64,000 bases of DNA from an uncultured Caulobacterales bacterium. Lineage in GTDB: Bacteria > Pseudomonadota > Alphaproteobacteria > Caulobacterales > Maricaulaceae. The stretch covers positions 1-64,000 of the forward strand of contig CALFUN010000012.1 of assembly GCA_937929915.1 (NCBI GenBank). The letters run 5' to 3'. The notes beneath the pieces were generated by a model that worked only from the letters and a program-made list of their open reading frames with translations, was not told the origin of the DNA and did not search any database. Shown one piece after another: positions 10,625 through 36,495 of this stretch. How positions within the stretch are numbered: position 1 is the first letter of the stretch; the number at the start of each line of letters is the position of its first letter. The translations under genes and the position numbers were made by a program.

Positions 10625-10693
10625 TGCGTAGAAAATAAACTAAAAAAATACGCAATTTGATATAAAAGGTGTGTTGAAAATCAATATTGCGTA
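10625..10693. promoter_or_regulatory. Three-arm operator (24/39 bp spacing)
   Basis: Arms are TGCGTA 10625-10630, TACGCA 10649-10654 and TGCGTA 10688-10693. Start-to-start distances are 24 and 39 bp, so the outer arms are 63 bp apart, close to six helical turns. The array fills the divergent promoter region between the SDR pair and the ligase operon. Identical spacing is found at 30829, 34793 and, in mirror order, at 25470 and 36427. Confidence 0.7.
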
Positions 10694-10738
10694 ATATAGT
10701 CTGTTTTTATTGATGGTAATGGAGGGTCATCACTTTTA

Positions 10739-12412
10739 ATGTCAAGTACAGGACATATATCGGATCCAATTATTGACGGCCTTATGTCTGCGGGCGCGCC
10801 ATTTGAGGTTGTCGAGCGCGATATAGATGGCGTAAGCCTACGTGTTTTTCGGCATGCAGCTGAAAATATGAGCGTTATTTTTGACCGTGCGCGCCAATTT
10901 GGCAGCGCTGAGTTTATTATATCTGGAACGCGGCGATTGAGTTTTGACGATGTCTTTGCCAGCGCTGATGGGTTAAGCGCTTGGCTTTTGCGAGATTTTA
11001 ATTTGCAACGCGGTCAGTCTGTAGCGATTTGCATGCAAAATTGCCCAGAATGGATGATAGCGTTTATCGCAATTATAAATGCGGGCGGTGTGGCTGTTTT
11101 AATGAATAGCCGCGGCACGGGTAGCGCGATGTCGCAAGCCATTATAGATGCTGATTGTGTCCTTGTCATTGGTGATGGAAAGCGGCTGGCGTATTTGGAG
11201 ATGGCAGGCTATGCAGGGGACGTGCTAGCCAGTACGGATTTTCCAAAGCCTTTAACAGGGTTCACCCCCATATATGCCAATAGCGAAGATCTTGCGGCAA
11301 TGTTCTTTACCTCGGGCACAACAGGGCGGGCCAAGGCGGCAGCTATTGCGCACCGCGCGCTCATTACGGGTATGATGAATACGCAAATGGCAATGGCGGC
11401 AGTGTTTCAAAAAATGGCTCTGGCTTATAATATAGATGTAGACACGCTGCGCGCGCAAATGCCGCAAAGCTGCTCACTTCTTATTTTTCCGTTATTTCAC
11501 ACAAGCGGGTGTAGCGCAGTGTTTCTGACGGCTCTGGCAACAGGCGGGAAGCTTGTTTTAATGGATAAGTGGGACGCGAGTGCGGCGCTTCGTCTAATCG
11601 AATCTGAGAAAATTTCATCATTTGGCGGTGTACCCACGATGTTTTGGGATGTGCTGCATGTGCCAGATTTTGAGACTTATGACCTCTCATCGCTTATGGC
11701 AGTGTCATGCGGCGGGCAGGCTTTGCCGCTCAATTTACTTGCTGAAATCAGAACGAAATTTCCCAAGGCTTTTATCGGAGCAGGCTACGGTATGACAGAA
11801 ACTTGCGGCGCGATTTCGCAAGCCAATGGGGAGGCGTTTTTAGCCAATCCATCTGCTTCGGGCCTAGTTCTACCGATGGTGGATGTACAGATTACCGATG
11901 GAGACGGGCAAGCTTTACCTATCGGGCAAACGGGCGAAATATGGGCAAAGGGCGCGACATTGATGCAAGGGTATTATGGCCGCCCCAAAGATACATCTGC
12001 GGCCATGTCAGGCGCTTGGTTTAAGACGGGTGATATAGGGCGTTTGGATGAAAATGGCTTTATTTATATTGTTGACCGTAAAACAGATATGGTAATTTCG
12101 GGTGGGGAAAATATTTATTGCGCCGAAGTCGAACAGGTTTTAGGGCGGCACGAAGGGGTGTTGGCGCTGACAGCTTTTGGCATTGAAGATGACCGCCTTG
12201 GAGAGCGTCTGATTGTCAGCGCGCAGGTAAAAGATGGCATAAATGTAGAGGATATTTGGAGTTTTGCGAGAGCAAACCTTGCGGCTTATACTCTGCCGAC
12301 AGATATTATTATTCAAACGCAGCCCTTTGAATTAAATGCGATGGGCAAAATTGAAAAACATAAAGCGCGTGCAGATTATCTCGCGCGAAAGAAAAAAGAA
12401 CAGGCGGCGTAA
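10739..12412 (+). CDS. AMP-dependent acyl-CoA synthetase
   Basis: The 557-residue product is a class I adenylate-forming enzyme. It has the P-loop-like signature FFTSGTTGRAK, the GYGMTETCG motif, the TGDIGRLDENG hinge region and a C-terminal lysine in MGKIEKHK. It would activate a carboxylic acid with ATP and CoA. In a steroid cluster the obvious candidates are a side-chain carboxylate (C24 or C22) or a ring-degradation acid. A separate FadD3 homologue lies at 34875, so this one probably acts on a different substrate. It is first in an operon with an amidohydrolase, a Rieske oxygenase, an enoyl-CoA hydratase and a DUF3604 protein. Its stop overlaps the next start (TAATG). Confidence 0.8.
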   Translation: MSSTGHISDPIIDGLMSAGAPFEVVERDIDGVSLRVFRHAAENMSVIFDRARQFGSAEFIISGTRRLSFDDVFASADGLSAWLLRDFNLQRGQSVAICMQNCPEWMIAFIAIINAGGVAVLMNSRGTGSAMSQAIIDADCVLVIGDGKRLAYLEMAGYAGDVLASTDFPKPLTGFTPIYANSEDLAAMFFTSGTTGRAKAAAIAHRALITGMMNTQMAMAAVFQKMALAYNIDVDTLRAQMPQSCSLLIFPLFHTSGCSAVFLTALATGGKLVLMDKWDASAALRLIESEKISSFGGVPTMFWDVLHVPDFETYDLSSLMAVSCGGQALPLNLLAEIRTKFPKAFIGAGYGMTETCGAISQANGEAFLANPSASGLVLPMVDVQITDGDGQALPIGQTGEIWAKGATLMQGYYGRPKDTSAAMSGAWFKTGDIGRLDENGFIYIVDRKTDMVISGGENIYCAEVEQVLGRHEGVLALTAFGIEDDRLGERLIVSAQVKDGINVEDIWSFARANLAAYTLPTDIIIQTQPFELNAMGKIEKHKARADYLARKKKEQAA

Positions 12413-13293
12413 TGGGCTACCCCAAAGATGTCAAAATTATTGATACGATGTTGGGGATTCCAACCCATGCTGACCGATCGGAATGGTATGAGAGCTTTCG
12501 GCCTTTGCTTAACGATCAGCAAAGTCGTGATATGTTCAAAATGCCGGCGCAATATATGTTCAAAGACATTCCCGAAGCGAGCGCAGATATATCTGATTTT
12601 ATTGCTTGGACAATAGAGCAATTAGATAAGCATAATATCGAACGCGCCATGGTTGGCTTTAACGACGATGATACATCGCGAAAAGCGGCGAAAGATTATC
12701 CTGATCGGATCTTTTTTGATGTGCCGTGTAATCCGAATGACGGCATGAATGAGGTACGCAGACTTAAACGCCTGCATGCTGATTATGGCGTTAAGGCCGC
12801 GTCTGTTTTTCCCGCAGGCACGTGTCCGCAAGTTGCGATTAATGATGCACGTATGTATCCACTTTATGCCGCCTGCGTTGAATTAGATATTCCTATTGTT
12901 TTAAATGTTGGGGTGCCAGGGCCGCGCATACCCATGCACACGCAAAAGGTTGAGCATTTAGATGAGGTTTGCTGGTTCTTCCCAGAGCTGAAAGTCGTGA
13001 TGCGCCACGGAGCTGAACCTTGGGAGGATTTAGCGGTTAAGCTAATGATTAAATACCCAAATCTATATTATTCAACTTCGGCTTTTGCGCCGAAACATTA
13101 TCCTAAAGCTATTATTGATTATGCCAATACGCGCGGGGCCGATAAGATTATTTATGCAGGATATTTCCCAATGGGGCTTGGTCTTGATCGTATTTTTAAA
13201 GATATGGAAAAAGTACCTTTCAAAGATGAAGTCTGGCCGAAATTTCTCCGGGATAATGCTGTGAGAGTATTTAAATTAGGAGATGATATATGA
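12412..13293 (+). CDS. Amidohydrolase family protein (Amidohydro_2)
   Basis: The 293-residue product resembles the metal-dependent TIM-barrel hydrolases and decarboxylases of Amidohydro_2 (ACMSD-like). Visible features are the early IIDTMLG strand, the GVKAASVFP segment and VVMRHGAEPWED, which corresponds to the family's metal-binding histidine on a late strand. The usual N-terminal HxH metal pair is not evident. Such proteins cleave C-N or C-C bonds or hydrolyse lactones. Its gene overlaps both neighbours (TAATG before, ATGA after), so it is tightly coupled to the ligase and the Rieske oxygenase. A pathway step is likely but cannot be named. Confidence 0.6.
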   Translation: MGYPKDVKIIDTMLGIPTHADRSEWYESFRPLLNDQQSRDMFKMPAQYMFKDIPEASADISDFIAWTIEQLDKHNIERAMVGFNDDDTSRKAAKDYPDRIFFDVPCNPNDGMNEVRRLKRLHADYGVKAASVFPAGTCPQVAINDARMYPLYAACVELDIPIVLNVGVPGPRIPMHTQKVEHLDEVCWFFPELKVVMRHGAEPWEDLAVKLMIKYPNLYYSTSAFAPKHYPKAIIDYANTRGADKIIYAGYFPMGLGLDRIFKDMEKVPFKDEVWPKFLRDNAVRVFKLGDDI

Positions 13294-14402
13294 GTTCTAA
13301 TACAACATCTCATGTGGCTGTTTGGGCGCAACTAGAAGGCCTGCGCGGTGATGAGCTTACGGCGTGGCGCATGAACGCCGTAGAAAACCGTGCCAGCGTT
13401 AAAGAGCGCAATTTAGATACCCTGCCTCTACCCTTTGGCTGGTTTATGGTGGCTTATTCTGATGAGCTTGAAATTGGCGCAGTCAAACCGCTTTACTATT
13501 TTGGGCAAGACCTTGTTCTCTGGCGCGGCGAAGACGGAGCGGCACGTGTTTTAAACGCTTATTGCAAGCATCTTGGCGCACATATGGGCTATGGCGGACG
13601 GGTGAGCGGGAACTCGCTTGAATGTCCGTTTCACGCATGGGAATATGACGGTACAGGCGCCGTCATAGCGGTGCCTTATGCTGAAAAAATCCCGCCATCT
13701 GCCGCGCGCCCTTGTGAGCTGCAATGGCATGTGGCCGAGAGTAATAAGCAAATTCTTGTCTGGTATCATCCGTTTAACGAAGCGCCGAAATGGAAGCCTG
13801 AAAGCTTTGACCAAGTGCATGACCCAGACTGGACGGCGTATAAAAAATATGAATGGATCGTGCATGGCCCCGTTCAGAATATGGCAGAAAATGGTGTTGA
13901 TGCGGCCCATTTTAAATATATTCACGGCACGGATAGTTTCCCGAATTATGACTTTGAATTTGATGGGCATAAGCGCTCGGCCAGTGTTGAGGCAAAAATG
14001 CCAACGCCCAAAGGGGTTGTTGACGGCACGATTGCCTATGGCACGGTTGGGGCTGGGCAAAGCTGGACGAAGTTCTCTGGCATATTAGAGACATTAATGA
14101 TCGCGGGTATCACTCCGATTGATCAAGAACGCACCCATATTCGTTTTGCATTCACGCAGCCAAAATCCGAGGCCGAAGGGCCGATGGCGAATCTGGCCAA
14201 AGCGATGCGCCGTGAAATATGTAAACAATTAGACCAAGATAAAGTGATTTGGGATCGGCAAAAATATATGCCGAAGCCAAGCATCTGTGATGGAGACGGG
14301 CCGATCTTGCCATTTCGTAAATTCTTTGCGCAATTTTATGCGGAATGGGAGGGCAATGGAAAGACAATCACAAAACTGAAAATTGATAAAAAGACGGGTT
14401 GA
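13290..14402 (+). CDS. Second Rieske oxygenase, KshA/steroid-type
   Basis: The 370-residue product has Rieske ligands Cys92-x-His94 and Cys112-x2-His115 (CPFH), and the iron-site segment QNMAENGVDAAHFKYIHG. It differs from the other Rieske protein in this window by a 45-residue N-terminal extension and by the iron-site sequence. The motif resembles KshA and the eukaryotic cholesterol 7-desaturase (DAF-36) group, so it may hydroxylate or desaturate a steroid nucleus. It starts in an ATGA overlap with the amidohydrolase. A reductase partner is not encoded here. Its place in a ligase/hydratase operon suggests a CoA-linked or side-chain-bearing substrate. Confidence 0.7.
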   Translation: MSSNTTSHVAVWAQLEGLRGDELTAWRMNAVENRASVKERNLDTLPLPFGWFMVAYSDELEIGAVKPLYYFGQDLVLWRGEDGAARVLNAYCKHLGAHMGYGGRVSGNSLECPFHAWEYDGTGAVIAVPYAEKIPPSAARPCELQWHVAESNKQILVWYHPFNEAPKWKPESFDQVHDPDWTAYKKYEWIVHGPVQNMAENGVDAAHFKYIHGTDSFPNYDFEFDGHKRSASVEAKMPTPKGVVDGTIAYGTVGAGQSWTKFSGILETLMIAGITPIDQERTHIRFAFTQPKSEAEGPMANLAKAMRREICKQLDQDKVIWDRQKYMPKPSICDGDGPILPFRKFFAQFYAEWEGNGKTITKLKIDKKTG

Positions 14403-15203
14403 TTGGCAAATTTGAACACATCTCATATTTTAGTCTCGCAAGAGGGCGCGGTGACGCATATCCGCTTGAACCGGCCAGAGGCGATGAATGCGATTACCCA
14501 TGAGATGCATGATTTGCTCGATCAAGCTTTTGACGCTTTTGCCGCCGATGATAGCCAATATATTGCCGTTATTTCGGGCGCAGGTGGTAAAGCTTTTTCT
14601 ACGGGTAGCGACCTAAAAGACGGTCTGAATGCGCCATATCCGCGCGGCGGATATGGAGGGCTAGCAGAGCGTTTTGATTTAGCCAAGCCTGTCATTGCAG
14701 CCGTGAATGGATATGCGCTTGGCGGCGGATTTGAACTCGCCTTAGTTTGCGATTTAATTATTGCGACAGATATATCTAGTTTTGGGCTCCCAGAACCGCT
14801 TGTGGGCGCGGTGGCGCTTGGCGGAGGGCTACATAGATTGCCACGGCAAATTGGCGAAAAACGCGCAATGGATCTCATTTTAACGTCTCGCCATGTTAGT
14901 GCGCAAGAAGGTTATGAAATGGGGTTTGTCAATGTTGTTGTGCCCGCAGATAAGCTTGACGCAACGCTCGGCCATTATTGTGATATGATTTTGAAAGGCG
15001 CGCCGATAGCCATTCAAACCTCTAAAATGACGGTTCAAAAAGGCCTTACGCAAGGCAGTCTTGAGGCCGCTATTCAGGCGCAAAATAGCTATCCAGAATT
15101 TGTGAAATGGCGCAATAGCGAAGACGCGGTTGAAGGCATAAAAGCCTTTACAGAAAAACGCGTGCCGCTTTGGTCAAATCGGTCATTAAATGAGTTAGAT
15201 TAG
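14403..15203 (+). CDS. Enoyl-CoA hydratase/isomerase family protein
   Basis: Crotonase-fold protein of 266 residues. The oxyanion-hole segments are SGAGGKAFSTGSDLK and NGYALGGGFELAL, and LPEPLVGAVALGG follows. It starts at a TTG directly after the TGA stop of the Rieske gene (no spacing), which indicates translational coupling. It would hydrate or isomerise an unsaturated acyl-CoA. It is one of three crotonase-type proteins in the window and the only one outside the HIP operon, so it probably serves the ligase-led branch. Confidence 0.75.
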   Translation: MANLNTSHILVSQEGAVTHIRLNRPEAMNAITHEMHDLLDQAFDAFAADDSQYIAVISGAGGKAFSTGSDLKDGLNAPYPRGGYGGLAERFDLAKPVIAAVNGYALGGGFELALVCDLIIATDISSFGLPEPLVGAVALGGGLHRLPRQIGEKRAMDLILTSRHVSAQEGYEMGFVNVVVPADKLDATLGHYCDMILKGAPIAIQTSKMTVQKGLTQGSLEAAIQAQNSYPEFVKWRNSEDAVEGIKAFTEKRVPLWSNRSLNELD

Positions 15204-15212
15204 GGGATGATT

Positions 15213-17105
15213 ATGTTAAAGAGGTTGGCTTTAAGCAGCGCGGCAATGAGCGCGATATTACTTTCAGGCTGCGGGGAAAAACCTGCACCAAAAGATGAGA
15301 TCACAATCGTTAAAACTGATGCGGCAGATATAGAGCGCACAGCCACGAAAAATGCTTATTTCGGGGATTTACATGTCCATACAAAAAACTCATTTGATGC
15401 TTTTATTGTCGGGACACGCACAACCGCTGATGATGCTTATCGATTTGCCCAAGGCCAAGGGATAGATAATGGCAGCGGGAATTTAATACAGCTCTCTGGC
15501 CCGCCGCTTGATTTTTATGGCGTCACAGATCACGGCGAATATATGGGTGTGATTGCCGCTATGCGAGATCGCTCAAATCCGATTTCAAAGACGAAAACGG
15601 CAAAGTCTGTTTTTGGCTTATTAGCAGGGGGGCGCGAGGCACGGCGTGAAGCATTTATCAAAATAGGCACGTCGATTGTCACGGGTGATGAGATTGACGA
15701 TATTTATGATCGTGACTTTATTGATAGTGCTTGGGCGGAAAATGTTGCTGCGGCACAAAAGCATAATCAACCCGGAAAATTTACCACATTTGCGGCTTAT
15801 GAATTTACAGCCATGGAAATTATTGGTGGTATTGAAGATAATCTTGGCGCGCTGAACTTGCATCGTAATGTTGTCTTTGCGGATGAAGCGCCAAGCCGTT
15901 TATTTACCACATTAGATTCGGATAATCCTGAAGACTTATGGGATTGGATGAACGAGCAGCGCGCGCAAGGCACGCAAGTCATTGCAATTCCGCATAATTC
16001 AAATGGGTCGAATGGCCAAATGTTTGATACCGTTATGACTGATGGGTCTCCAATCACCCAAGACTATGCGCGTAACCGTATATTAAACGAACCTATTGCT
16101 GAAATTAGCCAAGTTAAAGGGACATCGGAAACGCACCCTTTACTATCTCCTAACGATGAATGGGCTGGGCATGAGTTATATGACATCTTGATTGGAATGC
16201 CCGTCAAAGCACAAATCAAGCCAGGCAGTTTTGTGCGTCAGTCTTTGGGGCAAGGCTTAAAATTTGATGCAGAGCTTGGCGCTAATCCCTATAAATTCGG
16301 CTTTATTGGCTCGACAGATGCTCATGTTAGTGCCTCGTCCTTGTCCGAAGAAGATTTCTTTGGGAAGTTTAGCTCGGATTTAGAGCTGGAAACACGCGGG
16401 TCTATTCCGCCAGATGGGAAGAAAAATTGGGAGCAAGAATTTATTGATAAAAGCTTATTGATCTCAGCGCCGCAATATGCGGCAGCAGGTCTTGCAGGTG
16501 TCTGGGCTCGGGCCAATACGCGAGAAGATTTATTTGAATCAATGCAAGCCAAGGAAGTTTTTGCAACATCTGGCCCGCGCATTCGTGTACGGTTTTTTGC
16601 AGGGCAAGATTTTGATAATGACATTATCAATAGCGGCGATATGATCGAAACGGCTTATAACCAAGGTGTACCTATGGGCGGGGATTTAATCTCAGGGGTC
16701 ACGTCCCCGAAGTTTTTGGTTTGGGCGTCTCGCGATGCGTTAAGTGCGCCGTTACAGCGCGCGCAAATCATCAAAGTTACAACGGATGGCGAGACGGTCT
16801 ATGATGTGGCTTGCGCAGATGGCCGCGCACCAGATAGTACGACACATCGCTGCGCGGAAAATGGGGCGAGTGTGGATATATCTACCTGCGAAATATCTGG
16901 AAGCGGGGCCGCAGAGCTAAGAACATTATGGCAAGACCCAGATTGGCAGGCAGGACAAGCGGCTAGCTATTATGTGCGTGTGTTAGAAAACCCCAAATGC
17001 CGCTGGAGTACATGGGATGCAGTGCGTAATGGTAGTGAGCCTAATCCGTCTATGCAGGCAATTTTGCAAGACCGGGCGTGGAGTTCACCGATTTGGGTGC
17101 AATAA
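15213..17105 (+). CDS. DUF3604 lipoprotein with PHP-like metal motifs
   Basis: The product of about 630 residues starts at ATG 15213, which has a well-spaced AGGGG; an ATG six bases earlier is too close to it. A lipoprotein signal ends at the Leu-Ser-Gly-Cys lipobox near residue 20, so it is an envelope protein. The body matches the DUF3604 family. Metal-binding motifs of the PHP or amidohydrolase kind are visible: FGDLHVHT, GVTDHGEYMG, IPHNSN and STDAHVS. The activity is unknown; a metallo-hydrolase or phosphoesterase is plausible. It ends the ligase operon, 9 bases after the hydratase. Confidence 0.7.
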   Translation: MLKRLALSSAAMSAILLSGCGEKPAPKDEITIVKTDAADIERTATKNAYFGDLHVHTKNSFDAFIVGTRTTADDAYRFAQGQGIDNGSGNLIQLSGPPLDFYGVTDHGEYMGVIAAMRDRSNPISKTKTAKSVFGLLAGGREARREAFIKIGTSIVTGDEIDDIYDRDFIDSAWAENVAAAQKHNQPGKFTTFAAYEFTAMEIIGGIEDNLGALNLHRNVVFADEAPSRLFTTLDSDNPEDLWDWMNEQRAQGTQVIAIPHNSNGSNGQMFDTVMTDGSPITQDYARNRILNEPIAEISQVKGTSETHPLLSPNDEWAGHELYDILIGMPVKAQIKPGSFVRQSLGQGLKFDAELGANPYKFGFIGSTDAHVSASSLSEEDFFGKFSSDLELETRGSIPPDGKKNWEQEFIDKSLLISAPQYAAAGLAGVWARANTREDLFESMQAKEVFATSGPRIRVRFFAGQDFDNDIINSGDMIETAYNQGVPMGGDLISGVTSPKFLVWASRDALSAPLQRAQIIKVTTDGETVYDVACADGRAPDSTTHRCAENGASVDISTCEISGSGAAELRTLWQDPDWQAGQAASYYVRVLENPKCRWSTWDAVRNGSEPNPSMQAILQDRAWSSPIWVQ

Positions 17106-17211
17106 AATGTGCATTTGTTTTAAACCATATACGAATGACCGTAGATAGTTTATCGGCTTTGAGATAGACGGCGCGTTAAAATAGAGCCTCTGTGTGAAAA
17201 AAGGATGTGGG

Positions 17212-17676
17212 ATGGCTGAAAAAAATTTTCAATTCAATGAATTGGATAATTCAATTATCGAAATTCTCAAAAAAGATGGCCGTGCGAGCAATCAAAAAGT
17301 CGCCGATGAGTTAGGTGTGACGACATCTATGGTTTCGACGCGTATCCGCCGTATGGAACAAGCCAAAGCGATGAAGGTGGTTGCAGTGTCCGATTTTTCG
17401 GCCTTTGATTATAATGTATTATTGCCGATTGGGGTTGATGTGAAAGGACGTCGTGCCAATGATGTGGCTGAAGATTTGGCAAAATTGGATGAAGTGGCGT
17501 CTGTTCAACTTGTTAGCGGCAAGCATGATATTGAGATTTTAGTGACTTTGGCACATCTTGAAGAAATGTCAGATTTTTTACTCAGTAAGCTCTCGCAAAT
17601 CAAAGGCGTACGGAGCCTTGATCCAAGCTTTGCTGTTGACATAATTAAATATGACTTTGATGTCGCACCGATTTAG
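17212..17676 (+). CDS. Lrp/AsnC family regulator 1
   Basis: The protein of 154 residues has an N-terminal winged helix-turn-helix (LDNSIIEILKKDGRASNQ followed by VADELGVTTSMVSTRIRRM) and a C-terminal RAM/ligand-binding domain. I prefer ATG 17212 (AAGGATG upstream) over the in-frame GTG 17194. Lrp/AsnC proteins form dimers to octamers and wrap DNA at phased sites. It is followed 55 bases later by a second family member. These two are the only transcription factors seen in the window, so they are the best local candidates for the TGCGTA operators. The 100-base leader before it shows only a weak half-site (TACGAA 17130-17135). Confidence 0.85.
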   Translation: MAEKNFQFNELDNSIIEILKKDGRASNQKVADELGVTTSMVSTRIRRMEQAKAMKVVAVSDFSAFDYNVLLPIGVDVKGRRANDVAEDLAKLDEVASVQLVSGKHDIEILVTLAHLEEMSDFLLSKLSQIKGVRSLDPSFAVDIIKYDFDVAPI

Positions 17677-17731: not shown

Positions 17732-18226
17732 ATGAGTGATTATAAAATAGATGAGTTAGATCAAAAGATCATTCAGCTTTTATCTGAAGATGCGCGGCTC
17801 TCTAACCGTAAAATTGCCGCGCAGCTCGGCTTTACTGAAGGGACGATACGCTCGCGCGTTAAACGCCTTGAGGATGAAAATTATATCCGCTTTACGGCCG
17901 TCACAAATATGTCGCATCTGGATACGCCGCAACTTGCCTATATCGGGATTCACGCAGAACAAAACATGATTAAGCAAGTTGCCGAGAAAGTTGCAGAGTT
18001 TCCTGAAATCAATGCGGTGATTATCCTGCTAGGGCGTTTTGATATTCTGGCGATTGGATTATTTGAAGGCCTATCGGCTGTACATCAAGTTGCGAGTAAT
18101 AAGGTGCTTGATCTAAAAGGCGTGCGCCTTGTTGAAACGTCTGTTGTTGTTGATGTTATCAAATATGATAATCGCATCGCCAAAATTATAGCGCCCGTGG
18201 CAAATTACAGCGCCGCAGCCGAGTAA
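17732..18226 (+). CDS. Lrp/AsnC family regulator 2
   Basis: The 164-residue protein has the same two-domain plan as its neighbour: a winged helix-turn-helix with LSNRKIAAQLGFTEGTIRSR and a C-terminal RAM domain ending in VDVIKYD, a phrase nearly shared with regulator 1 (VDIIKYD). The pair is probably an old tandem duplication. An AGGAA ribosome site precedes the ATG. Its stop overlaps the start of the next gene (TAATG). The two could form heteromers or respond to different pathway intermediates; this is inference. Confidence 0.85.
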   Translation: MSDYKIDELDQKIIQLLSEDARLSNRKIAAQLGFTEGTIRSRVKRLEDENYIRFTAVTNMSHLDTPQLAYIGIHAEQNMIKQVAEKVAEFPEINAVIILLGRFDILAIGLFEGLSAVHQVASNKVLDLKGVRLVETSVVVDVIKYDNRIAKIIAPVANYSAAAE

Positions 18227-19179: not shown

Positions 19180-19650
19180 TTAAGTATCCATCATCCATTT
19201 GGCGGTTAGATTGTCATCCGCTAATGTCCCATCAATAATCGTGCGAGGCGTGGATTTAGTATAACATATACGCCAACCAGCTTCTGTCTTGCGGTAGCGG
19301 TCTTCATAAAAACTGGCCAGCATACGAAAGCTTTTGCTGCGTGGATCATAGGTAGCAAAGCCAAGATTCCAGCGGCCCGTAGCGGTGTCGCCGTCAATCT
19401 CGATTTCGCCATTATGGCCGTGATGCACATCAATGATAGGCGTGCTGGCAGCCATTTGCTCGAATATACCCATGAGGCCATCGAGATTAAAATGGCCTAA
19501 TGGCGGAAATACGATCTCTGCGTCATCCGTGAAACAGGCGCGAATAGATTTCATATCTTTGGCGTCGCAAGCATTTAAATACCGCGCTTTGAGTCTACGA
19601 ATATCGCTTTCGGCCTCAAGCCTGATGATGCGGGCTTCCAAATCAGACAT
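19180..19650 (-). CDS. SnoaL-like protein resembling BaiE-type hydroxysteroid dehydratase
   Basis: The 156-residue product is of the NTF2 fold. It carries Tyr24 and Asp29 in KARYLNACD, and a VHHGH segment (His76, His77, His79) followed by EIEIDGDTATGRWNL. From memory, clostridial BaiE (bile acid 7-alpha-dehydratase) has the same layout, with a catalytic Tyr, an Asp five residues later, a His in MHQGH and the ATGRW phrase. The aerobic Hsh2 dehydratases of sphingomonads are relatives. I therefore propose elimination of a steroid hydroxyl, perhaps at C7. It overlaps the DUF1214 gene by 8 bases in the same operon. The assignment rests on motif recall and not on a search. Confidence 0.6.
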   Translation of the reverse strand: MSDLEARIIRLEAESDIRRLKARYLNACDAKDMKSIRACFTDDAEIVFPPLGHFNLDGLMGIFEQMAASTPIIDVHHGHNGEIEIDGDTATGRWNLGFATYDPRSKSFRMLASFYEDRYRKTEAGWRICYTKSTPRTIIDGTLADDNLTAKWMMDT

Positions 19651-20725: not shown

Positions 20726-20726
20726 A

Positions 20727-21506
20727 TCACGGCGCCATATATTGCCCGCCATTCACATCCAGCGTAGCGCCAGATACAACATTGGCATATTCAGATACGA
20801 AATATAAAACGGCTTTCGCGCAGTCATCTTCGGGCGGGATAATCCCAAGGGGAATGCGGCTTGTAATTTCGCTGATAACTTCCTCACGTGCGCGTCCGCT
20901 GGCGACTTGGGCGTCAATATAGCCATAGACGGGCGCGCCGCCAATCCAACCCATACGGCAAGCATTAACCCGTATGCCAAATGCGCCGAAATCCTGCGCC
21001 ATATGTTTGGTCAATACACCAAGGCCGCCTTTACTCGCGGCATAGGCGGCTTCGCCCGGGAAGGGATTCACTGTGGCCATGGTTGAGACATTGACAATCG
21101 CGCCAGATTTTTGTGCTTTCATAGCAGGAAGCACAGCTTGGCTCATACGTAAGGCACCGAGGCAATTTACATCGTAAACATTTGTCCAGTCTTCGGGATT
21201 TGCTACATCGCTTGTGGCCCAATTACCGTGGAGATAGGCGCTATTGACCAGACCATCTATACGGCCAAACTTGTCTGCTACGGCTTTGGCAAGAGTATCG
21301 CAGTCTTGCGCTTGCGTCACATCAGTGGAAAACGCGATGGCCTGTCCGCCCTTATCCGTGATGTCTTTCGCCACGCTGTCGATGAAATCTTGATTACGCG
21401 CGCCAAGGCCAAGTTTAGCCCCTTGCGCGGCTGCGATTTTCGCCATGCTTTGCCCCATGCCTGGGCCAACGCCGCTTATGATAATAACTTTATCTTTGAG
21501 TAACAT
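20727..21506 (-). CDS. SDR family oxidoreductase
   Basis: The SDR of 259 residues has a slightly unusual nucleotide motif SGVGPGMG, then NSAYL in place of NNAG, and YAASK as the catalytic pair. It is the first gene of the minus-strand operon ending at 18672. Its start codon lies inside the first arm of the operator array at 21506, so repressor binding would cover the translation start. It is likely a hydroxysteroid dehydrogenase whose product feeds the BaiE-like dehydratase next to it; this is inference from gene order. Confidence 0.75.
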   Translation of the reverse strand: MLLKDKVIIISGVGPGMGQSMAKIAAAQGAKLGLGARNQDFIDSVAKDITDKGGQAIAFSTDVTQAQDCDTLAKAVADKFGRIDGLVNSAYLHGNWATSDVANPEDWTNVYDVNCLGALRMSQAVLPAMKAQKSGAIVNVSTMATVNPFPGEAAYAASKGGLGVLTKHMAQDFGAFGIRVNACRMGWIGGAPVYGYIDAQVASGRAREEVISEITSRIPLGIIPPEDDCAKAVLYFVSEYANVVSGATLDVNGGQYMAP

Positions 21507-21596
21507 GCGTATTTCGTAACTGAAAACTCTACGAATAAAAATAAAAATCTTTCTTATTGTCTATCTTTGCGTAGTAATGTGTAAAATAAAAACGCA
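21506..21596. promoter_or_regulatory. Four-arm variant of the TGCGTA operator
   Basis: Arms are TGCGTA 21506-21511, TACGAA 21530-21535, TGCGTA 21568-21573 and AACGCA 21591-21596. Start-to-start distances are 24, 38 and 23 bp, close to the 24/39 rule seen elsewhere. It lies between the divergent SDR and sulfotransferase genes. Confidence 0.55.
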
Positions 21597-25469: not shown

Positions 25470-25538
25470 TACGCAATAGCAAGAAGAATACCCATATATA
25501 TCTTAGAATACGTAAAAATATGACAAAATTATTGCGCA
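25470..25538. promoter_or_regulatory. Three-arm operator, mirror order (39/24)
   Basis: Arms are TACGCA 25470-25475, TACGTA 25509-25514 and TGCGCA 25533-25538. Start-to-start distances are 39 and 24 bp, the mirror image of the 10625 array. A further TACGTA lies at 25554-25559. The region separates the FAD dehydrogenase from the SDR/transporter operon. Confidence 0.65.
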
Positions 25539-25595
25539 TTTAAATTTCTCTGCTACGTATTTCATAAGTAAATGACACAGGTGGATGGGGGAGAT

Positions 25596-26474: not shown

Positions 26475-26476
26475 GT

Positions 26477-26926: not shown

Positions 26927-28077
26927 ATATGCCCAGAGACGCCTTAGCTGTGATTATTGCTGTGTCGATGGTATCGGCGATTGGCGGTCTTGTATTTAAT
27001 ACAATGCCGCTTTTACTCAGCGCAGCTAAAACGGATTTTGATATGGGCCCTGCGCAATTAGGGAGTTTATCTTTTATGGCAGGGATAGGCTATTTGCTGG
27101 GGACGCTAACAGCGCCCTTATGGGTTGATCGCGTGAATTGGCGATTGACAGCATTTGCGATTATTTTGGCTGTAATATGTGTATGTTTAACTATGAGCCA
27201 AGTCTCAAGCCGTGCGTTATTTGTAGGTTTTATTGGCTATGGGTTTTTCTGCGCGCTTGCTATTGCGCTGGCGATGCGAATATTAGCGGATATGCCAGAC
27301 CCAGAACGAGCATATGGCACGCGGTTATCTGTAGAGCTTGTGTCTATCGGGGCTTTTTTAAGTATTTTGCCGATTATATTTATCGCGAAATTTGGATTTA
27401 GCGGCGCTATGTTGGGTCTGGCTTGCATGGCAGGATTGCTTGGATTGGGAGCATTGTTATGTCCGCCAAAGACATCAACCATTGATGTGGCAACGCGGAT
27501 AAGTTTCCCAACTTGGCAGCGGGCGCATATTTCTTGGAAAATACTCATTATCTTTACGCTCTATTTATTGGCCAATGTTGGTTTATATTTTTTTCTTGCC
27601 GTGATTGCGCAGAAATTTGAACCAAGCCAAGAGCAGTTTTCGCTTATGTTTGGTGTGCTAAAATGGCTAGGCGGCGTCGCGGGGGCGCTGGGGGCAATTA
27701 TTGGCGCAAGAGCCGGGCTGCGTGTGCCGCATTATGCCGCTATGATAATTTTAATAATAGGTGTTGCAGGTCTGCTGCTGGCGCAAAATTTCACGCAATT
27801 TATGATCGCAAGCTGGGTATGGGAATTTGGGTTTACGTTAGGTTGCCTGTACCAAACGGCGGCGATTGTGCGGTTTGATCGGTCTAATAAATTGGTTATG
27901 CTTGTGCCTATGGGCTTCGGGATTTCAACAATGCTTGGCGGCCGTATTGCAGGGCAAATGCTTGAAGGCGGCGCGGTGCATGGATTATATATCTGGGTGG
28001 TTGTTAGCTCGCTTCTGCCATCTATTTTTATTTTATGCTCGTCTATGGAGCCGCCATTACAGGCGGCGAATGATTAA
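26923..28077 (+). CDS. MFS transporter
   Basis: The 384-residue product has about twelve hydrophobic segments and the general layout of the major facilitator superfamily, including a GYLLGTLTAPLWVDRVN loop after helix 2. It starts in an ATGA overlap with the small membrane protein. The substrate is unknown; the context suggests a steroid or a partly degraded acid. It is not closely similar to the spinster-like carrier at 7612. Confidence 0.7.
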   Translation: MNMPRDALAVIIAVSMVSAIGGLVFNTMPLLLSAAKTDFDMGPAQLGSLSFMAGIGYLLGTLTAPLWVDRVNWRLTAFAIILAVICVCLTMSQVSSRALFVGFIGYGFFCALAIALAMRILADMPDPERAYGTRLSVELVSIGAFLSILPIIFIAKFGFSGAMLGLACMAGLLGLGALLCPPKTSTIDVATRISFPTWQRAHISWKILIIFTLYLLANVGLYFFLAVIAQKFEPSQEQFSLMFGVLKWLGGVAGALGAIIGARAGLRVPHYAAMIILIIGVAGLLLAQNFTQFMIASWVWEFGFTLGCLYQTAAIVRFDRSNKLVMLVPMGFGISTMLGGRIAGQMLEGGAVHGLYIWVVVSSLLPSIFILCSSMEPPLQAAND

Positions 28078-30014: not shown

Positions 30015-30767
30015 TTACCCTATAAATGCTTGGCCGCCATCAAGCGCGATGGTTTGCCCAGAAAGATACCGCCCTGCATCGCTGCACATCACCGCTACAA
30101 AAGCTCCAATATCGTCTTCGCATTCCCCGACATAACCCATTGGAATGCTAGCTTGAAAATGCTCGGCTTCCACGGGGTTGGCGTCTATCCAGCCTGCCAA
30201 AGCCGGGGATTTCGCGTGAGGCATAATCGCATTTACGCGAATGCCGTCCTTGCCCCATTCATTAGCCGCTGCGCGAGTGAGTTGCTGCGTGGCCGCTTTG
30301 ACGGCCGCATAAACGCCGTAAGTGCCAACATCCCAGCGTTTCATGACAGAGCTACATAAATTAATGACATGCCCTTTTGTCTCTTTGAGATGCGGATAAG
30401 CCATTTTCATAAGACGAAATGTTGCCAAGGGGCCAGAGTCAAAATTACCTTGAAAAGCCTCGTCGCTAATTGATAATAGCGGCCCGCGCGCGACCTCTTG
30501 TGCGTTATTGACGAGTATGTCGAGGCGTCCAAACTCTGCGAGTGTTGCGTCGACACTATTTTGTAAATCTTGAACAGATTTAACATCGCAGCGCAAGGCA
30601 AGGGCTTTGACCCCGCGCGCCCGTAGCAGCTCTGCGCTTGCCTCGCATTTTTCCAATGTACGGCCAGTAACCACAATATTTACGCCTTGTTTGGCCAGTG
30701 CCAGCGCGATGCCTTGCCCAACACCTTGCCCGCCGCCTGTGATTAAGGCCGTTTTATGTTTCAGCAT
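30015..30767 (-). CDS. SDR family oxidoreductase
   Basis: Classical SDR of 250 residues with TGGGQGVG, NNAQ in place of NNAG, the CSSV catalytic serine strand and YAAVK. The TGRTLEK segment hints at NADP(H). It is the first gene of a minus-strand pair and is divergent from the SnoaL/OYE/methyltransferase operon. A three-arm operator lies between the two. Confidence 0.75.
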   Translation of the reverse strand: MLKHKTALITGGGQGVGQGIALALAKQGVNIVVTGRTLEKCEASAELLRARGVKALALRCDVKSVQDLQNSVDATLAEFGRLDILVNNAQEVARGPLLSISDEAFQGNFDSGPLATFRLMKMAYPHLKETKGHVINLCSSVMKRWDVGTYGVYAAVKAATQQLTRAAANEWGKDGIRVNAIMPHAKSPALAGWIDANPVEAEHFQASIPMGYVGECEDDIGAFVAVMCSDAGRYLSGQTIALDGGQAFIG

Positions 30768-30828: not shown

Positions 30829-30897
30829 TGCGTAAAAATTATAGAATAAAAATACGCAAAACTTAATATAAGTCAAAAGAATAGATAGAAATGCGTA
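30829..30897. promoter_or_regulatory. Three-arm operator (24/39 bp spacing)
   Basis: Arms are TGCGTA 30829-30834, TACGCA 30853-30858 and TGCGTA 30892-30897, with the same 24 and 39 bp steps as the 10625 array. The first two arms extend to a perfect 9-bp inverted repeat, TTTTGCGTA and TACGCAAAA, around an AT-rich 18-base spacer. This is the best match to the consensus in the window. Confidence 0.72.
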
Positions 30898-30936
30898 GTT
30901 TTATTGCTATATTGGCTCCATATTTGGGAGTTTTAT

Positions 30937-31587
30937 ATGAATCGTCTAGAAGCGCGTATAGATCGGCTCGAATCTTTGGAAGCTATACGGCAGCTTGTGA
31001 GTAAATATGCGTTGACGCTGGATATGCGCGATCTTGATGCGCATGTGAATTTATTTGCCCATGATATTCGCGTTCGCCGAGATGTGACAGGCCGCGCCGC
31101 GCTTAAGGCTTGGCTTGATGATACGCTGCGCCTGCAATTTACCGGTACGTCTCATCATATCGGCAATCATGTGATTGAATTTGATGATCCTGATACGGCA
31201 CATGGCATTGTTTACTCTAAAAATGAACATGAAACGCCGCGTGAAGATGGCGGTACAGATTGGGTGATTATGCAAATGATCTATTGGGATAATTATGAAC
31301 GAATTGACGGGCCGGACGGGCCGCAATGGTATTTTCGCCGCCGCTTACCTTGCTATTGGTATGCTACAGATTTAAACGCCCCGCCGACGGGGGATAGGAA
31401 AATGCGCTGGCCTGACAAAGAGGCGTATGAAGGGGCGTATCATACGTTATTTCCAAGCTGGGAAGTTTTTTGGAAACACCCGCCCAAAGATGGCGTGACA
31501 CCTGAAGTCGCCGCGCCCGCTCCGCGAGAGGCTTTCTTGAAAACTATGCGAGCAGGGCAGCCTTTCCCGAAAATCAGAGTGCGTTAA
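30937..31587 (+). CDS. SnoaL-like (NTF2-fold) protein, extended
   Basis: The product of 216 residues starts at ATG 30937 after a GGGAG site; an in-frame ATG at 30904 lies too close to the operator. The first 130 residues are a SnoaL_4-type domain with RQLVSKYALTLDMRDLD and a TSHHIGNH histidine segment. The C-terminal 80 residues, rich in Trp and Pro, are an extension not usual for the family. The Tyr-x4-Asp and His pattern resembles BaiE-type dehydratases more loosely than the protein at 19180 does. It overlaps the OYE gene by one base. Confidence 0.65.
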   Translation: MNRLEARIDRLESLEAIRQLVSKYALTLDMRDLDAHVNLFAHDIRVRRDVTGRAALKAWLDDTLRLQFTGTSHHIGNHVIEFDDPDTAHGIVYSKNEHETPREDGGTDWVIMQMIYWDNYERIDGPDGPQWYFRRRLPCYWYATDLNAPPTGDRKMRWPDKEAYEGAYHTLFPSWEVFWKHPPKDGVTPEVAAPAPREAFLKTMRAGQPFPKIRVR

Positions 31588-33531: not shown

Positions 33532-34020
33532 GTGTTGAGGTTTAATAGTTAGATTTAGGTGTTTTCGTAATAAATCTTGCGCGGCGTTTTCGCCAGTTAC
33601 GCGGCTTTCGCGCCGTGCGATTTTCCATTGGCCATCTTCTTTGCGTAAGGCCCAATGATTGACCGCTACGCGCATGAGGCGTTGGCCGTGATAAACGCGT
33701 GAATAACCTGTTGCGCTAGCGGTTTTGCCTGTGATGTCCACCATAAGCGGGCCGGCCGTATGGGCGCAATCAGGCAGTAGCGATTGGTGCATATCGGAGC
33801 CGAGCATATCAGCTATTGCGCCGTGCCCCTTAAGCTCTAAATCTGCGCTATGCTCTCTGCGCCCTGCATTGGGATTACTGACAATATAGACGGCGTCTTT
33901 GGTGTGGCAGTCGAGCGCAGTTGATATATCGCCGCAATCGGCCGCCATGCCGTAACGGGCGATAAGGTTGCGAATGGCAAGTTCGGCCTCGATGCGGGTG
34001 ATGCGTGCTTCATGTGTCAT
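33523..34020 (-). CDS. SnoaL-like (NTF2-fold) protein
   Basis: The 165-residue product has the SnoaL_4 layout: an AIRNLIARYGMAADCGD helix, then TKDAVYIV, a central MHQSLLPDCAHT histidine segment and a C-terminal WKIARRESRV strand. It follows an SDR in an ATGA overlap. It is one of five SnoaL-type genes in the window (counting the KSI at 54357). The substrate is unknown; a dehydratase or isomerase role is plausible. Confidence 0.65.
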   Translation of the reverse strand: MTHEARITRIEAELAIRNLIARYGMAADCGDISTALDCHTKDAVYIVSNPNAGRREHSADLELKGHGAIADMLGSDMHQSLLPDCAHTAGPLMVDITGKTASATGYSRVYHGQRLMRVAVNHWALRKEDGQWKIARRESRVTGENAAQDLLRKHLNLTIKPQHSN

Positions 34021-34772
34021 CCCAACTTATGCGCCTCTTCTGCGATTTTTAGAAAGCTTGGCGGTTCGCCGCCGCCGTAAACTTCAAGACAGGCGCCTGA
34101 TATATAGCTATTGTCTGAATCTGCCAGAAATAGGCAGGCTTTGGCAATATCTTCAGGGCTGCCCATGCGTTTCATTGGTAAATTTTCGGCCAGATATGCC
34201 ATGCCTTTAACGCCGCCATAATGATTTGCGCTGGCATCAGTTTTCACGAGGCCTGCAATGATGGCATTGACACGAATATCAGGCGCCCATTCCATCGCCA
34301 GTGAGGTGGTGACATTTAAAAGCCCAGCTTTTGCGGCCCCGTAAGCCACGGAACCCGGAGAACTGCGCGTGGCGGATACGCTAGATATATTGATGATAGA
34401 CCCGCCGCTATGTTTAAGAGGCTCATATGCGGCTTGGGCTAAATTAATTGGCGCTAGCAAATTCAGCGCGATGATTTTTTGCGTCAGGTTCGGGCTTGCG
34501 TCTTTACTGGCAACAGGCGGGCCGCCCCCTGCATTATTGATTAAGCAATCCATGCGGCCAGTTTTTTCTATAGCGAAATCTATTAAAGCCCGCGCCGCTT
34601 CTGGCATGCGAATATCGAGCGATATAAAATGGCTATTTATGGGGAGGGTATCTGGGTTTTGCCGTCCACATATAATGATATTGGCACCTTGGCTGGCGAA
34701 TGCCTCTGATATGCCGCGCCCAATACCGCGACCGCCGCCTGTCACAATGATGGTTTTGTTTTTAAACGTCAT
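34017..34772 (-). CDS. SDR family oxidoreductase
   Basis: Classical SDR of 251 residues with TGGGRGIG, NNAGGG, ISSVSATR and YGAAK. The CGRQNPD segment after beta strand 2 suggests NADP(H). It is first of a two-gene minus operon with a SnoaL-like protein and is divergent from fadD3 across a three-arm operator whose first arm starts 21 bases from its ATG. Confidence 0.75.
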   Translation of the reverse strand: MTFKNKTIIVTGGGRGIGRGISEAFASQGANIIICGRQNPDTLPINSHFISLDIRMPEAARALIDFAIEKTGRMDCLINNAGGGPPVASKDASPNLTQKIIALNLLAPINLAQAAYEPLKHSGGSIINISSVSATRSSPGSVAYGAAKAGLLNVTTSLAMEWAPDIRVNAIIAGLVKTDASANHYGGVKGMAYLAENLPMKRMGSPEDIAKACLFLADSDNSYISGACLEVYGGGEPPSFLKIAEEAHKLG

Positions 34773-34792
34773 GTTATTCGGCTCATAAGTTT

Positions 34793-34861
34793 TGCGTAAA
34801 ATATAGCTTCATATGTTGCGCAAAATCACGTCTATGTATAGTCAAACTCTTTGAATGCGTA
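34793..34861. promoter_or_regulatory. Three-arm operator (24/39 bp spacing)
   Basis: Arms are TGCGTA 34793-34798, TGCGCA 34817-34822 and TGCGTA 34856-34861, with steps of 24 and 39 bp. The middle arm is the perfect palindrome TTGCGCAA. The last arm is 13 bases before the fadD3 start codon, consistent with repression. Confidence 0.7.
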
Positions 34862-34874
34862 AAATGAGTAAGCC

Positions 34875-36392
34875 ATGACGACAATTTTACAATGTCTTTT
34901 CGATCAAGCTGCGGCTCGCCCAGCGGCTTTGGCGATTAGTGATGGCGATTGGCAGTTAAGCTATCAAGATTTGGCAAATAAAGTCGAGATAGCCGCATCT
35001 GTGATGGCGCATATAGGATTAAGCCAGGGTGATAAATTTGGCGTTTGGGCTCCAAATTGTGCCGAATGGATTATCTGCGCGCTTGCGGGGCAAAGGCTAG
35101 GCGCGGTGATGGTGACGCTCAATACGCGTTATAAGGGAGCTGAAGCCGCTGATATTTTACGGCGCTCACATTGCAGAATTTTATTTACGGTAAAGAATTT
35201 TCTCGGCCATGATTACCCCGCAATGTTAAGCGGGCAGGATTTACCAGAATTGGAGCAAATCATTGTCATTCGGAATGCAGACGGCCAATCAGCATTTGAA
35301 GACTTCTTGGCAAGACCCAAAGCAGTGTTGCCGCCAATAGCCGTCAAAGATACGGATATTTCTGATATTATTTTCACCTCTGGCACAACAGGTGCGCCGA
35401 AAGGGGCGATGACAACCCATGCGCAGAATGTGCAAGTATTTGAGAGTTTCACGGATGCTATAGGCATGCATGAAAATGACCGCTATCTTATCGTCAATCC
35501 GTTCTTCCATAGTTTTGGCTATAAGGCAGGGTGGTTATCATGCCTGATTAAAGGCGCTGCGATTTTCCCTTTGGCTGTGTTTGAACCCAAAGATGTATTA
35601 ACGCGCATAGAGCGCGATAAAATCACGGTTATGCCCGGCGCGCCAACGATTTTCCAAACATTATTGAGCCATCCTGATTTAAGCGCGCATGATATTTCTA
35701 GCCTGCGCGTTGCGACAACAGGGGCAACGACTATTCCTGTCGACCTTATTGCCCGCATGCATGAAGATCTTGGGATTGATGATGTGTTTTCCGCTTATGG
35801 TTTGACGGAATCAACAGGTGTTGTTTCGCTGTGTCAAAAAGGTGATGATTTTGATACGATTGCGACAACTTGCGGACGGCCTTTGCCAGGGACAGAATTG
35901 CGCTTGGTTGATGATGCAGGCATAGATGTCGCTGCGGGGCAAGCGGGCGAAATATGGGTGCGCGGCTTTAACGTTATGCAAGGTTATTTGGATGATGCCG
36001 CAGCCACGGCTGAAACAATTACGTCTGATGGGTGGCTTAAAACAGGGGATATTGGTCAGCAAGATGAACGCGGTTATATCAAAATCACAGACCGCAAAAA
36101 AGATATGGTCATTGTTGGCGGATTTAATGTCTATCCTGCGGAGGTGGAAAAGGCCCTGCTGCAGCATCCTGATATTTCTGATGCGGCTGTGATAGCCATG
36201 GCAGATGCTCGGCTTGGCGAAGTGACCTGTGCCCATATTGTGACACCTAAACAGGGCGAGGCATTGACGCCCGACGCGCTCATAATGTGGTGCCGAGACA
36301 AGATGGCCAATTATAAGGTGCCTCGCAATATTACATTTCATGACAGCTTGCCGCGTAATGCCTCTGGCAAAGTGATGAAATATAAGCTGTAA
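34875..36392 (+). CDS. fadD3: HIP-CoA ligase, FadD3-like
   Basis: The 505-residue product is an AMP-dependent ligase. It has the signature IIFTSGTTGAPKG and the segment FFHSFGYKAGWLSCLIKGA, followed by a TRIERDKITVMPGAPTIFQT-type stretch. These agree closely with actinobacterial FadD3 as I recall it. SAYGLTEST and NASGKVMK complete the catalytic set. FadD3 activates HIP (the C/D-ring propanoate left after ring A/B removal), starting the CoA branch encoded downstream. It is a single gene with an operator on each side (34793 and 36427), so it can be controlled together with the HIP operon. Confidence 0.82.
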   Translation: MTTILQCLFDQAAARPAALAISDGDWQLSYQDLANKVEIAASVMAHIGLSQGDKFGVWAPNCAEWIICALAGQRLGAVMVTLNTRYKGAEAADILRRSHCRILFTVKNFLGHDYPAMLSGQDLPELEQIIVIRNADGQSAFEDFLARPKAVLPPIAVKDTDISDIIFTSGTTGAPKGAMTTHAQNVQVFESFTDAIGMHENDRYLIVNPFFHSFGYKAGWLSCLIKGAAIFPLAVFEPKDVLTRIERDKITVMPGAPTIFQTLLSHPDLSAHDISSLRVATTGATTIPVDLIARMHEDLGIDDVFSAYGLTESTGVVSLCQKGDDFDTIATTCGRPLPGTELRLVDDAGIDVAAGQAGEIWVRGFNVMQGYLDDAAATAETITSDGWLKTGDIGQQDERGYIKITDRKKDMVIVGGFNVYPAEVEKALLQHPDISDAAVIAMADARLGEVTCAHIVTPKQGEALTPDALIMWCRDKMANYKVPRNITFHDSLPRNASGKVMKYKL

Positions 36393-36426
36393 ACTCTATC
36401 AAAACGAGAGAGATGCGACAGTTTGT

Positions 36427-36495
36427 TACGCAAAATGGCGTTTTTAAGCCTTAAAAATGTAATATTGCGTATTAAATACCATTGAAAAATGCGCA
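36427..36495. promoter_or_regulatory. Three-arm operator, mirror order (39/24), upstream of hsaA
   Basis: Arms are TACGCA 36427-36432, TGCGTA 36466-36471 and TGCGCA 36490-36495, with steps of 39 and 24 bp. It occupies the fadD3-hsaA intergenic region and is the only visible control element before the 19-kb hsa-ipd run. Promoter elements are not clear enough to name. Confidence 0.7.

Follow-up and report, generated by a model that had tools for sequence, protein, structure and literature searches.

Proteins of the Lrp family bind as dimers to imperfect repeats of 13-17 bp with an AT-rich centre, spaced two or three helical turns apart, and can wrap DNA (PMC2995911). We describe here a three-arm DNA element that recurs with fixed spacing in a steroid-type catabolic gene cluster of an uncultured Caulobacterales bacterium of the Maricaulaceae (assembly GCA_937929915.1). 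The stretch analysed, referred to as the window, corresponds to positions 1 to 64,000 of contig CALFUN010000012.1 (C12; 112,181 bp, in a genome of 2.49 Mb). Judging from sequence comparisons, we consider it likely that this element serves a steroid-catabolic regulon as its common operator, most probably bound by a tandem pair of Lrp/AsnC proteins encoded in the window, around which the DNA would be wrapped and transcription repressed.

Among the described systems, the autoregulatory operator of Ss-LrpB from Sulfolobus is similar in that it has three dimer sites per promoter, with an AT-centred 15-bp motif, TTGCAAAATTTGCAA, and DNA wrapped round three dimers (PMC4046817, PMC2995911). Unlike the case of Ss-LrpB, each site proposed here would consist of one strong and one weak half in alternating orientation, the targets belong to a bacterial steroid regulon, and two paralogous Lrp proteins are encoded together. 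Ah-BarR from Acidianus is an Lrp-type octamer that covers three sites in a divergent region with two spacer lengths, and wrapping was observed there by atomic force microscopy (PMC10201364). Its spacers, however, are 17 and 27-29 bp between whole sites and concern a single promoter, whereas the steps of 24 and 39 bp found here are fixed almost to the base pair in dozens of promoters from several genera.

Concerning steroid degradation, KstR, KstR2 and EdcR act at repressor operators located before steroid genes and are relieved by pathway compounds (PMC8700777). These are TetR family proteins with palindromic operators, whereas no TetR gene was recognised among the 63 open reading frames (ORFs) of the window. 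A KstR-type palindrome, TNNAACNNGTTNNA, gave 19 matches with at most one mismatch compared with 21.9 by shuffling, and was thus not enriched. The regulators reported for steroid degradation in proteobacteria are TetR-, LuxR-, LysR- or AraC-like, with EdcR as the worked-out sphingomonad case (PMC12882949, PMC8700777). The bile-salt cluster of Sphingobium sp. Chol11 resembles the present locus in harbouring two contiguous Lrp/AsnC genes among steroid-type catabolic genes; the accessible text describes no operator, mechanism or experiment for this pair (PMC12882949), and the likeness is one of description. In the accessible open-licence literature on Lrp/AsnC and steroid degradation we found one relevant mention of an Lrp pair, without an operator; neither a described steroid-degradation regulator for hyphomonads nor KstR in Alphaproteobacteria was found there. 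Steroid degradation in Hyphomonadaceae and Hellea has been predicted from metagenomes (PMC5790920).

A three-arm element of fixed spacing and orientation

The element is composed of six-base arms. With > for TGCGTA and < for TACGCA, it reads > 24 < 39 >, the numbers being the steps between arm starts in base pairs. The five triples reported in the initial annotation were found on the sequence with the steps given there: 24 then 39 at 10625/10649/10688, 30829/30853/30892 and 34793/34817/34856, and the mirror order, 39 then 24, at 25470/25509/25533 and 36427/36466/36490. Every arm of these triples fits TRCGYA without mismatch. The arms had been taken as equivalent near-palindromes, a view that did not hold, as they are oriented, the outer ones mostly TGCGTA and the middle one mostly TACGCA. 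Their placement in divergent promoters applies to four of the five triples; the site at 36427-36495 lies between two + strand genes. A four-arm site, described there as near-identical, is present at 21506-21596; it has steps of 24/38/23 by a count on the sequence, and its arms are weaker. The two-arm site at 7509-7538 also exists, with arm starts at 7509/7533, a step of 24. The sites, scored with a sequence-only model built on 23 operators (R1), and their flanking genes, many of them for short-chain dehydrogenases/reductases (SDRs), are as follows.

10625..10693, + strand: putative three-arm operator (24/39) with exact arms; R1 48.8 bits, E 1.5e-12 genome-wide, the site itself being in the model; between SDR 9803-10570 (-) and acyl-CoA ligase 10739-12412 (+)
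25470..25538, - strand: putative three-arm operator with exact arms and R1 match, kept in orthologous promoters of other genomes; between FAD-binding KstD-like gene 23724-25424 (-) and SDR 25572-26474 (+)
30829..30897, + strand: putative three-arm operator with exact arms and R1 match, kept in orthologous promoters; between SDR 30015-30767 (-) and SnoaL-like gene 30904-31587 (+)
34793..34861, + strand: putative three-arm operator with exact arms and R1 match, filling a 102-bp gap, the two start codons of the ORF list being 21 and 14 bp away; between SDR 34017-34772 (-) and AMP-binding ligase 34875-36392 (+)
36427..36495, - strand: putative three-arm operator with exact arms and R1 match, upstream of an hsaA-hsaD-hsaC type operon; 13 such promoters aligned
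7509..7538, no strand assigned: two-arm version (24), R1 21.2 bits; between Oxidored_FMN 6186-7427 (-) and MFS 7591-8934 (+)
21506..21596, no strand assigned: degenerate four-arm version (24/38/23), weak R1 match of 14.8 bits; between SDR 20727-21506 (-) and sulfotransferase 21618-22766 (+)

Fuller versions of the last two sites occur in relatives. In genome G018, a three-arm site with one mismatch lies between orthologues of the Oxidored_FMN/MFS pair, and the G088 orthologue of the 21506 site has steps of 24/39 with one mismatch. Beyond the window, contig C12 carries two more operator matches, at 64316-64380 (partial) and 64558-64634, one of which is a 24/39 site with one mismatch. Both precede an ORF of 885 aa whose start is at 64741 and whose product we take to resemble an outer-membrane receptor.

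The spacing is far from that expected of scattered arms. The window contains 16 matches with up to three mismatches, compared with a mean of 2.34 and a largest value of 7 in 100 shuffles. When all step pairs of 12-59 bp were considered, 24/39 and 39/24 together made up 5/7 of the window triples, and the same scan gave 4/4 triples in an 80-kb stretch of G028 and 5/7 in one of G018. No exact 24/39 triple is present in the stretches of G003 and G032; near versions are found in both, and G032 has one of 24/38. Random placement of arms on the whole 112-kb contig yielded a mean of 0.0008 triples and at most one in 20,000 trials, against the five observed.

Pairs of arms were counted in 1.04 Mb, comprising 30 stretches from 15 of the 20 operator-bearing genomes (the other five being G068, G069, G090, G091 and G092). 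These stretches were mostly picked through R1 matches; less biased are 240 kb chosen by homology to one of the Lrp/AsnC proteins, Lrp1, and the sphingomonad loci described below. In the non-coding part, defined by a simple and rough ORF rule, 81 pairs were found at 24 bp, 65 at 39 bp, 66 at 63 bp and 10 at 62 bp, and the remaining distances from 7 to 159 bp, the 62-bp class included, had a mean of 0.49. Orientation was strict: at 24 bp there were 48 '><' and no '<>' pairs, the others containing a symmetric arm, and at 39 bp 47 '<>' and no '><'. Over the whole stretches, with pairs of 14-59 bp, '><' occurred at exactly 24 bp in 80/98 cases and '<>' at exactly 39 bp in 63/81. In the 240 kb picked by Lrp1 homology alone, '><' stood at 24 bp in 16 of 34 pairs with every other distance seen at most twice, and '<>' at 39 bp in 11 of 32, the next distance being 63 bp with 5.

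The element has a restricted distribution. R1 matches with E <=0.001 were found in 20 of 137 genomes of the family, 5 to 20 in each, and in none of the other 117. Depending on the search, R1 scored 150, 33 or 11 candidates per genome, so that weak matches may be lost, and matches on the two strands of one site were counted separately. Common occurrence of such arms elsewhere in the genome had been named beforehand as speaking against a shared operator; all R1 matches stronger than E 0.02 in the genome are on contig C12. Conservation in relatives was likewise borne out, orthologous promoters of other genomes carrying the operator. Five genomes with Lrp1 contained 21-36 R1 matches each (E up to 1, both strands, chance matches counted), whereas in 15 relatives without Lrp1 the best match had an E of 0.06.

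Target promoters and the tandem Lrp/AsnC genes

Most operators, 79 of 88, adjoin an assigned homologue of a window gene. The distance from operator edge to start codon has a median of 26.5 bp (quartiles 17 and 45, n=116), the starts being approximate, as aligned to the window proteins. The promoter of the ligase gene at 34875 carries the operator in 13 of 15 genomes, with the SDR on the other side in 12 of those; a promoter of this type is not among the operators listed for G032 and G087, of which only part was fetched. The site at 36427 precedes the following features.

36482..36509, + strand: probable core promoter TTGAAA-N16-TATTCT, the last arm (36490-36495) lying in its spacer; one found by scan, shuffle mean 0.7
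36540..55994, + strand: ring-degradation operon with HsaA-type acyl-CoA dehydrogenase, HsaD- and HsaC-like proteins and beta-oxidation genes by Pfam; presumed target of the 36427 operator

Of the 13 aligned hsaA-type promoters, 9 have TTGAAA immediately ahead of the last arm and 12 have TG.TA directly behind it, in agreement with the scan hit at 36482-36509; this probable promoter call rests more on the comparison than on the scan. Sigma-70 scans at 10540-10760 and 34760-34890 were no better than chance. In the ORF list the hsaA-type gene begins with GTG 36540, and the alignment of relatives favours ATG 36555, preceded by a Shine-Dalgarno-like stretch, which is probably the real first codon.

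Two regulator genes lie side by side in the cluster.

17194..17676, + strand: Lrp1, Lrp/AsnC-family regulator with a helix-turn-helix (HTH) domain of HTH_AsnC type and AsnC_trans_reg; in 18 of 137 family genomes
17732..18226, + strand: Lrp2, second Lrp/AsnC regulator with a conserved recognition helix; in the same 18 genomes

No DNA-binding regulator other than Lrp1 and Lrp2 was recognised among the 63 window ORFs scanned, all of 100 aa or more, of which five had no family match; for seven of them NCBIfam was the only collection used, and the limit in part of the Pfam scans was a strict 1e-8, so that a weak HTH could be missed. Both genes are present in 18 of the 20 operator-bearing genomes and in 0 of the 117 others. 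A close HsaC-like protein (>=68% identity) is encoded in 16 of 137 genomes, all 16 of which bear the operator; its distribution thus tracks both the steroid pathway and the Lrp pair. HsaC-like genes of 30-37% identity in G031, G015 and G135, which occur without operator, were treated as belonging to other dioxygenases. At the class level, R1 matches were found in 4 of 385 genomes, namely the genome of the window, G309, G212 and G274, and Lrp1 in four, the genome of the window, G309, G404 and G483. G309 harbours the Lrp pair and an HsaA-type protein of 71%. The match in G274 (E 2.9e-4) has no homologue of a window protein within 18 kb and was treated as chance.

In the hyphomonad loci read and in most other loci, the Lrp1 and Lrp2 genes are neighbours with a constant order; locus L143 departs from this, and G136 contains an additional, partial Lrp2. 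In a tree with 31 sequences of each, they form two clades separated by a split with support 1.0. The recognition helix of Lrp2 shows 95.7% identity within hyphomonads and 71.1% to others, that of Lrp1 69.7% and 45.5%. The conserved helix of Lrp2 and the variable one of Lrp1 suggest, as a lead, that Lrp2 might read TGCG and Lrp1 supply a tolerant half. In 7 of 15 genomes an operator stands in front of lrp1, as would be expected of autoregulation, which is frequent but not universal for such regulators. Lrp1 relatives occur in 13 named genomes, mostly of Hellea, including Hellea balneolensis DSM 19091; the others are a Hyphomonadaceae record, a Caulobacterales record and a distant one labelled 'Proteobacteria'. 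Solved structures related to Lrp1 include PH1519 (FL11), LrpA and AsnC.

A proposed wrapped-operator model and its alternatives

The DNA between the arms is phased. From 88 operators, those sharing >=62% identity with an earlier member of the set were removed. In the remaining 44, the A/T content of the sequence outside the arms has a period of 10.4 bp with a power of 0.93, compared with a maximum of 0.043 in 2000 shuffles. The long spacer contains two A/T maxima, near 40 and 51, distant from the arms. The right flank carries a weaker signal in phase (period 10.6, 0/2000 shuffles) and the left flank a weak one of another period, 12.1, which 9/2000 shuffles reach (12.0 over all 88 sites, power 0.05, 0/2000). 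DNA with such phasing is suited to wrapping, and we infer that it may be curved around protein for about six to eight turns.

The bases around the arms indicate where a dimer may sit. When the 132 oriented arms are pooled, the 5' side has A/T at -3 to -1, A at -4 (75/132) and C at both -5 (46) and -7 (48), a pattern seen in each of the three arms; the 3' side has A or G at +6, T at +7 (79/132) and then A/T. Around a dyad near -2 (CAWWWTG), A-4 is complementary to T0, C-5 to G+1 and C-7 to G+3; about the arm centre these three bases have no mirror partner. T+7 could pair with A-11 (77) about the offset dyad or with A-2 (77) about the arm centre. A weak mirrored second half-site (CAWWW) is present in all three arms, with a clear AT centre and one half far weaker than the other. 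The raw arm steps of 24 and 39 do not fit two or three turns. Dyads placed near -2 of each arm fall at -2, 31 and 61, with steps of 33 and 30 bp, and coincide with the computed A/T maxima at about -1, 30 and 61; with these offsets the A/T phase is mirror-symmetric for > and < arms.

The comparisons show the element itself, its rules of spacing and orientation, its phasing and conservation, and its occurrence together with the Lrp pair; binding, dyad position, wrapping, repression and an inducer are inferred, as follows. Each TGCGTA arm would be the strong half of an Lrp-type site of about 15 bp, AT-centred, with its dyad about 4 bp 5' of the arm centre. The strong half would alternate right, left, right on dimers about three turns apart, and regular dimers with such alternation place the arms 24 and 39 bp apart. 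The A/T-phased DNA (10.4 bp) would wrap around the Lrp oligomer. The default effect is probably repression, because the wrap would cover core promoters, and may be relieved by a steroid metabolite; repression by occlusion is the natural reading of the overlap between operator and promoter. The proposal that one oligomeric regulator wraps these promoters and coordinates the cluster therefore stands in part: the 10.4-bp phasing and the co-occurring Lrp/AsnC pair agree with it, but there are two candidate proteins, the arms alternate, and G212 has operator-like sites without the pair.

A more specific form of the model, which we put forward only tentatively, is that Lrp1 and Lrp2 form an obligate hetero-oligomer in which Lrp2, with the helix TEGTxR that is almost invariant across orders, reads TGCG and Lrp1, with its variable helix, a degenerate half, the heterodimers alternating round a ring and so writing > 24 < 39 >. 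If true, steroid catabolism in Alphaproteobacteria would be repressed by a nucleosome-like assembly of two proteins that is geometry-coded.

Might the same Lrp operator act mainly as an activator site or a dual switch? Lrp-family proteins can activate, repress or do both (PMC2995911), and Ss-LrpB activates neighbouring targets (PMC4046817). The positions of the operators make this doubtful in our estimation: their edges lie a median of 26.5 bp from start codons, one fills the 102-bp SDR/ligase gap, and an arm of the hsaA-type promoter stands between -35-like and -10-like hexamers, an arrangement hard to square with classical upstream activation. Rather unlikely, too, is a reading in which every TRCGYA arm forms by itself a whole dimer site, near-palindromic about its CG, with the 24/39 steps putting the sites on different helix faces. 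The core is nearly palindromic, symmetric TGCGCA occurs among the arms, and T+7 (79/132) and A-2 (77/132) are complementary about the arm centre; such a site would nevertheless be at odds with the strict orientation (48 '><' and 0 '<>' at 24 bp, 47 '<>' and 0 '><' at 39 bp), with A-4, C-5 and C-7, which mirror only about -2, and with the mirror-symmetric A/T phase given by offset dyads.

Loci outside the family bear on the choice of binder. Lrp1 homologues (44-56%) were found in 21 records of sphingomonad plasmids. A second Lrp/AsnC gene directly follows in the annotated loci L142, L144, L145 and L148, and meta-cleavage-type genes are found in the region in L142, L144 and L148, not in L145. 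In L143, a plasmid of Novosphingobium sp. ES2-1, the Lrp1 homologue is alone, and a more distant tandem pair is located 6 kb away in the same catabolic region (19980-20510, 26130-27145). In eight loci chosen by Lrp1 homology, an arm profile gave 15 arm pairs at 24 bp, of which 13 were '><' and 0 were '<>'. At 39 bp, '<>' made up 5 of the 6 pairs; other distances had a mean of 0.56 and a largest value of 4. All eight '>24<' sites of the annotated loci are intergenic; across all the loci scanned, 5 of the 19 sites had a third arm with a positive score. The phasing result for the sphingomonad sites is partly circular, the sites having been picked by an arm profile that includes A/T flanks. As a third arm is mostly lacking there, the pair spaced by 24 bp may represent an older core, with the third arm peculiar to hyphomonads; the tandem Lrp genes in Chol11 fit this possibility.

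It is also conceivable, although in our judgement quite improbable, that the operator is real and bound by an unlinked regulator of another HTH family or a nucleoid protein, the Lrp pair merely travelling along. Several observations weigh against an Lrp-bound operator and some speak for this alternative. In G212, which belongs to another family, '>24<' sites occur at 106225 and 111983, and the genome has neither the Lrp pair nor hsaA. These two operator-like sites adjoin homologues (50-57%) of two SDRs and a ligase, 106225 has a third arm 39 bp away, and they belong to an SDR/sulfotransferase/ligase island (C20 105000-116000, L162) related to the window cluster. No other regulator was recognised among seven ORFs near them, one of which is without any family; incomplete assembly (the genome is 92% complete), loss or another regulator are possible. 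Conversely, G404 and G483 have Lrp1 homologues (53-54%) and no R1 match in the search of the 385 class genomes; a single '>24<' pair lies close to the Lrp genes of G483. L032, with a distant Lrp1 relative (48%), shows no operator. In the sphingomonad loci R1 gave no more than two weak partial matches (E 0.003 and 0.006). G090 and G091, 77% and 82% complete, have operators and no Lrp pair. The lrp1 of the window is itself without a clear operator; it may be transcribed from the 10625 promoter, because the genes from 10739 to 17105 share its direction. The arm core is asymmetric, unlike the textbook symmetric Lrp site, the second half-site is weak (A-4 75/132, C-5 46), and T+7 with A-2 fits an arm-centred site. 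Finally, the Lrp pair travels with the steroid cluster, and co-occurrence alone cannot separate Lrp from another binder. Against an unlinked regulator stand the Lrp/AsnC pair as the sole DNA-binding regulators recognised among the 63 window ORFs, the operator before lrp1 in 7/15 genomes, the agreement of the phasing with Lrp-type wrapping, and the sphingomonad '>24<' sites in loci with Lrp genes, though these loci were picked by Lrp1 homology. An origin by chance, or by common descent from a small number of promoter duplications, is hardly credible: some orthologous promoters are similar along their length, but 44 sites <62% identical to each other retain arms and phase, and Monte Carlo placement on the contig gave on average 0.0008 triples where 5 are present.

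An operator of near base-pair-exact grammar with a candidate regulator pair and a predicted regulon suggests how the pathway may be controlled, which can be tested in Hellea balneolensis. If Lrp-bound, the dozens of probably wrapped sites would be a natural library from which the geometry of the Lrp-DNA superhelix might be read. The operator can also be used to locate steroid genes in unannotated genomes.

Other features of the steroid cluster

The Pfam families of the window include KshA-type Rieske oxygenases, an extradiol dioxygenase, a hydrolase and a DmpG-type aldolase like those of Hsa pathways, acyl-CoA dehydrogenases and many SDRs, which supports steroid degradation of the 9,10-seco type as the predicted function of the cluster; the Hsa names used here are our reading of these families. 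A marker gene of the cluster is the following.

5085..6158, - strand: predicted KshA-type 3-ketosteroid 9alpha-hydroxylase oxygenase (KshA_C 2.2e-51)

Rfam gave no family at gathering score in the window. The sulfotransferase gene lies beside an FGE/sulfatase-modifying-factor gene (21618-23727) and a sulfatase gene is present at 57745-59343, raising the possibility of sulfated-steroid handling. A DUF3604 protein is encoded within the cluster at 15207-17105. Cluster ORFs without family match are 26477-26926 and 59353-61044 (Pfam) and 19643-20752 (NCBIfam), and the ORF at 19643 has a 40% relative in the G212 island. RTX calcium-binding repeat proteins are encoded at the left edge of the window (1645-3534 and 3845-4402).

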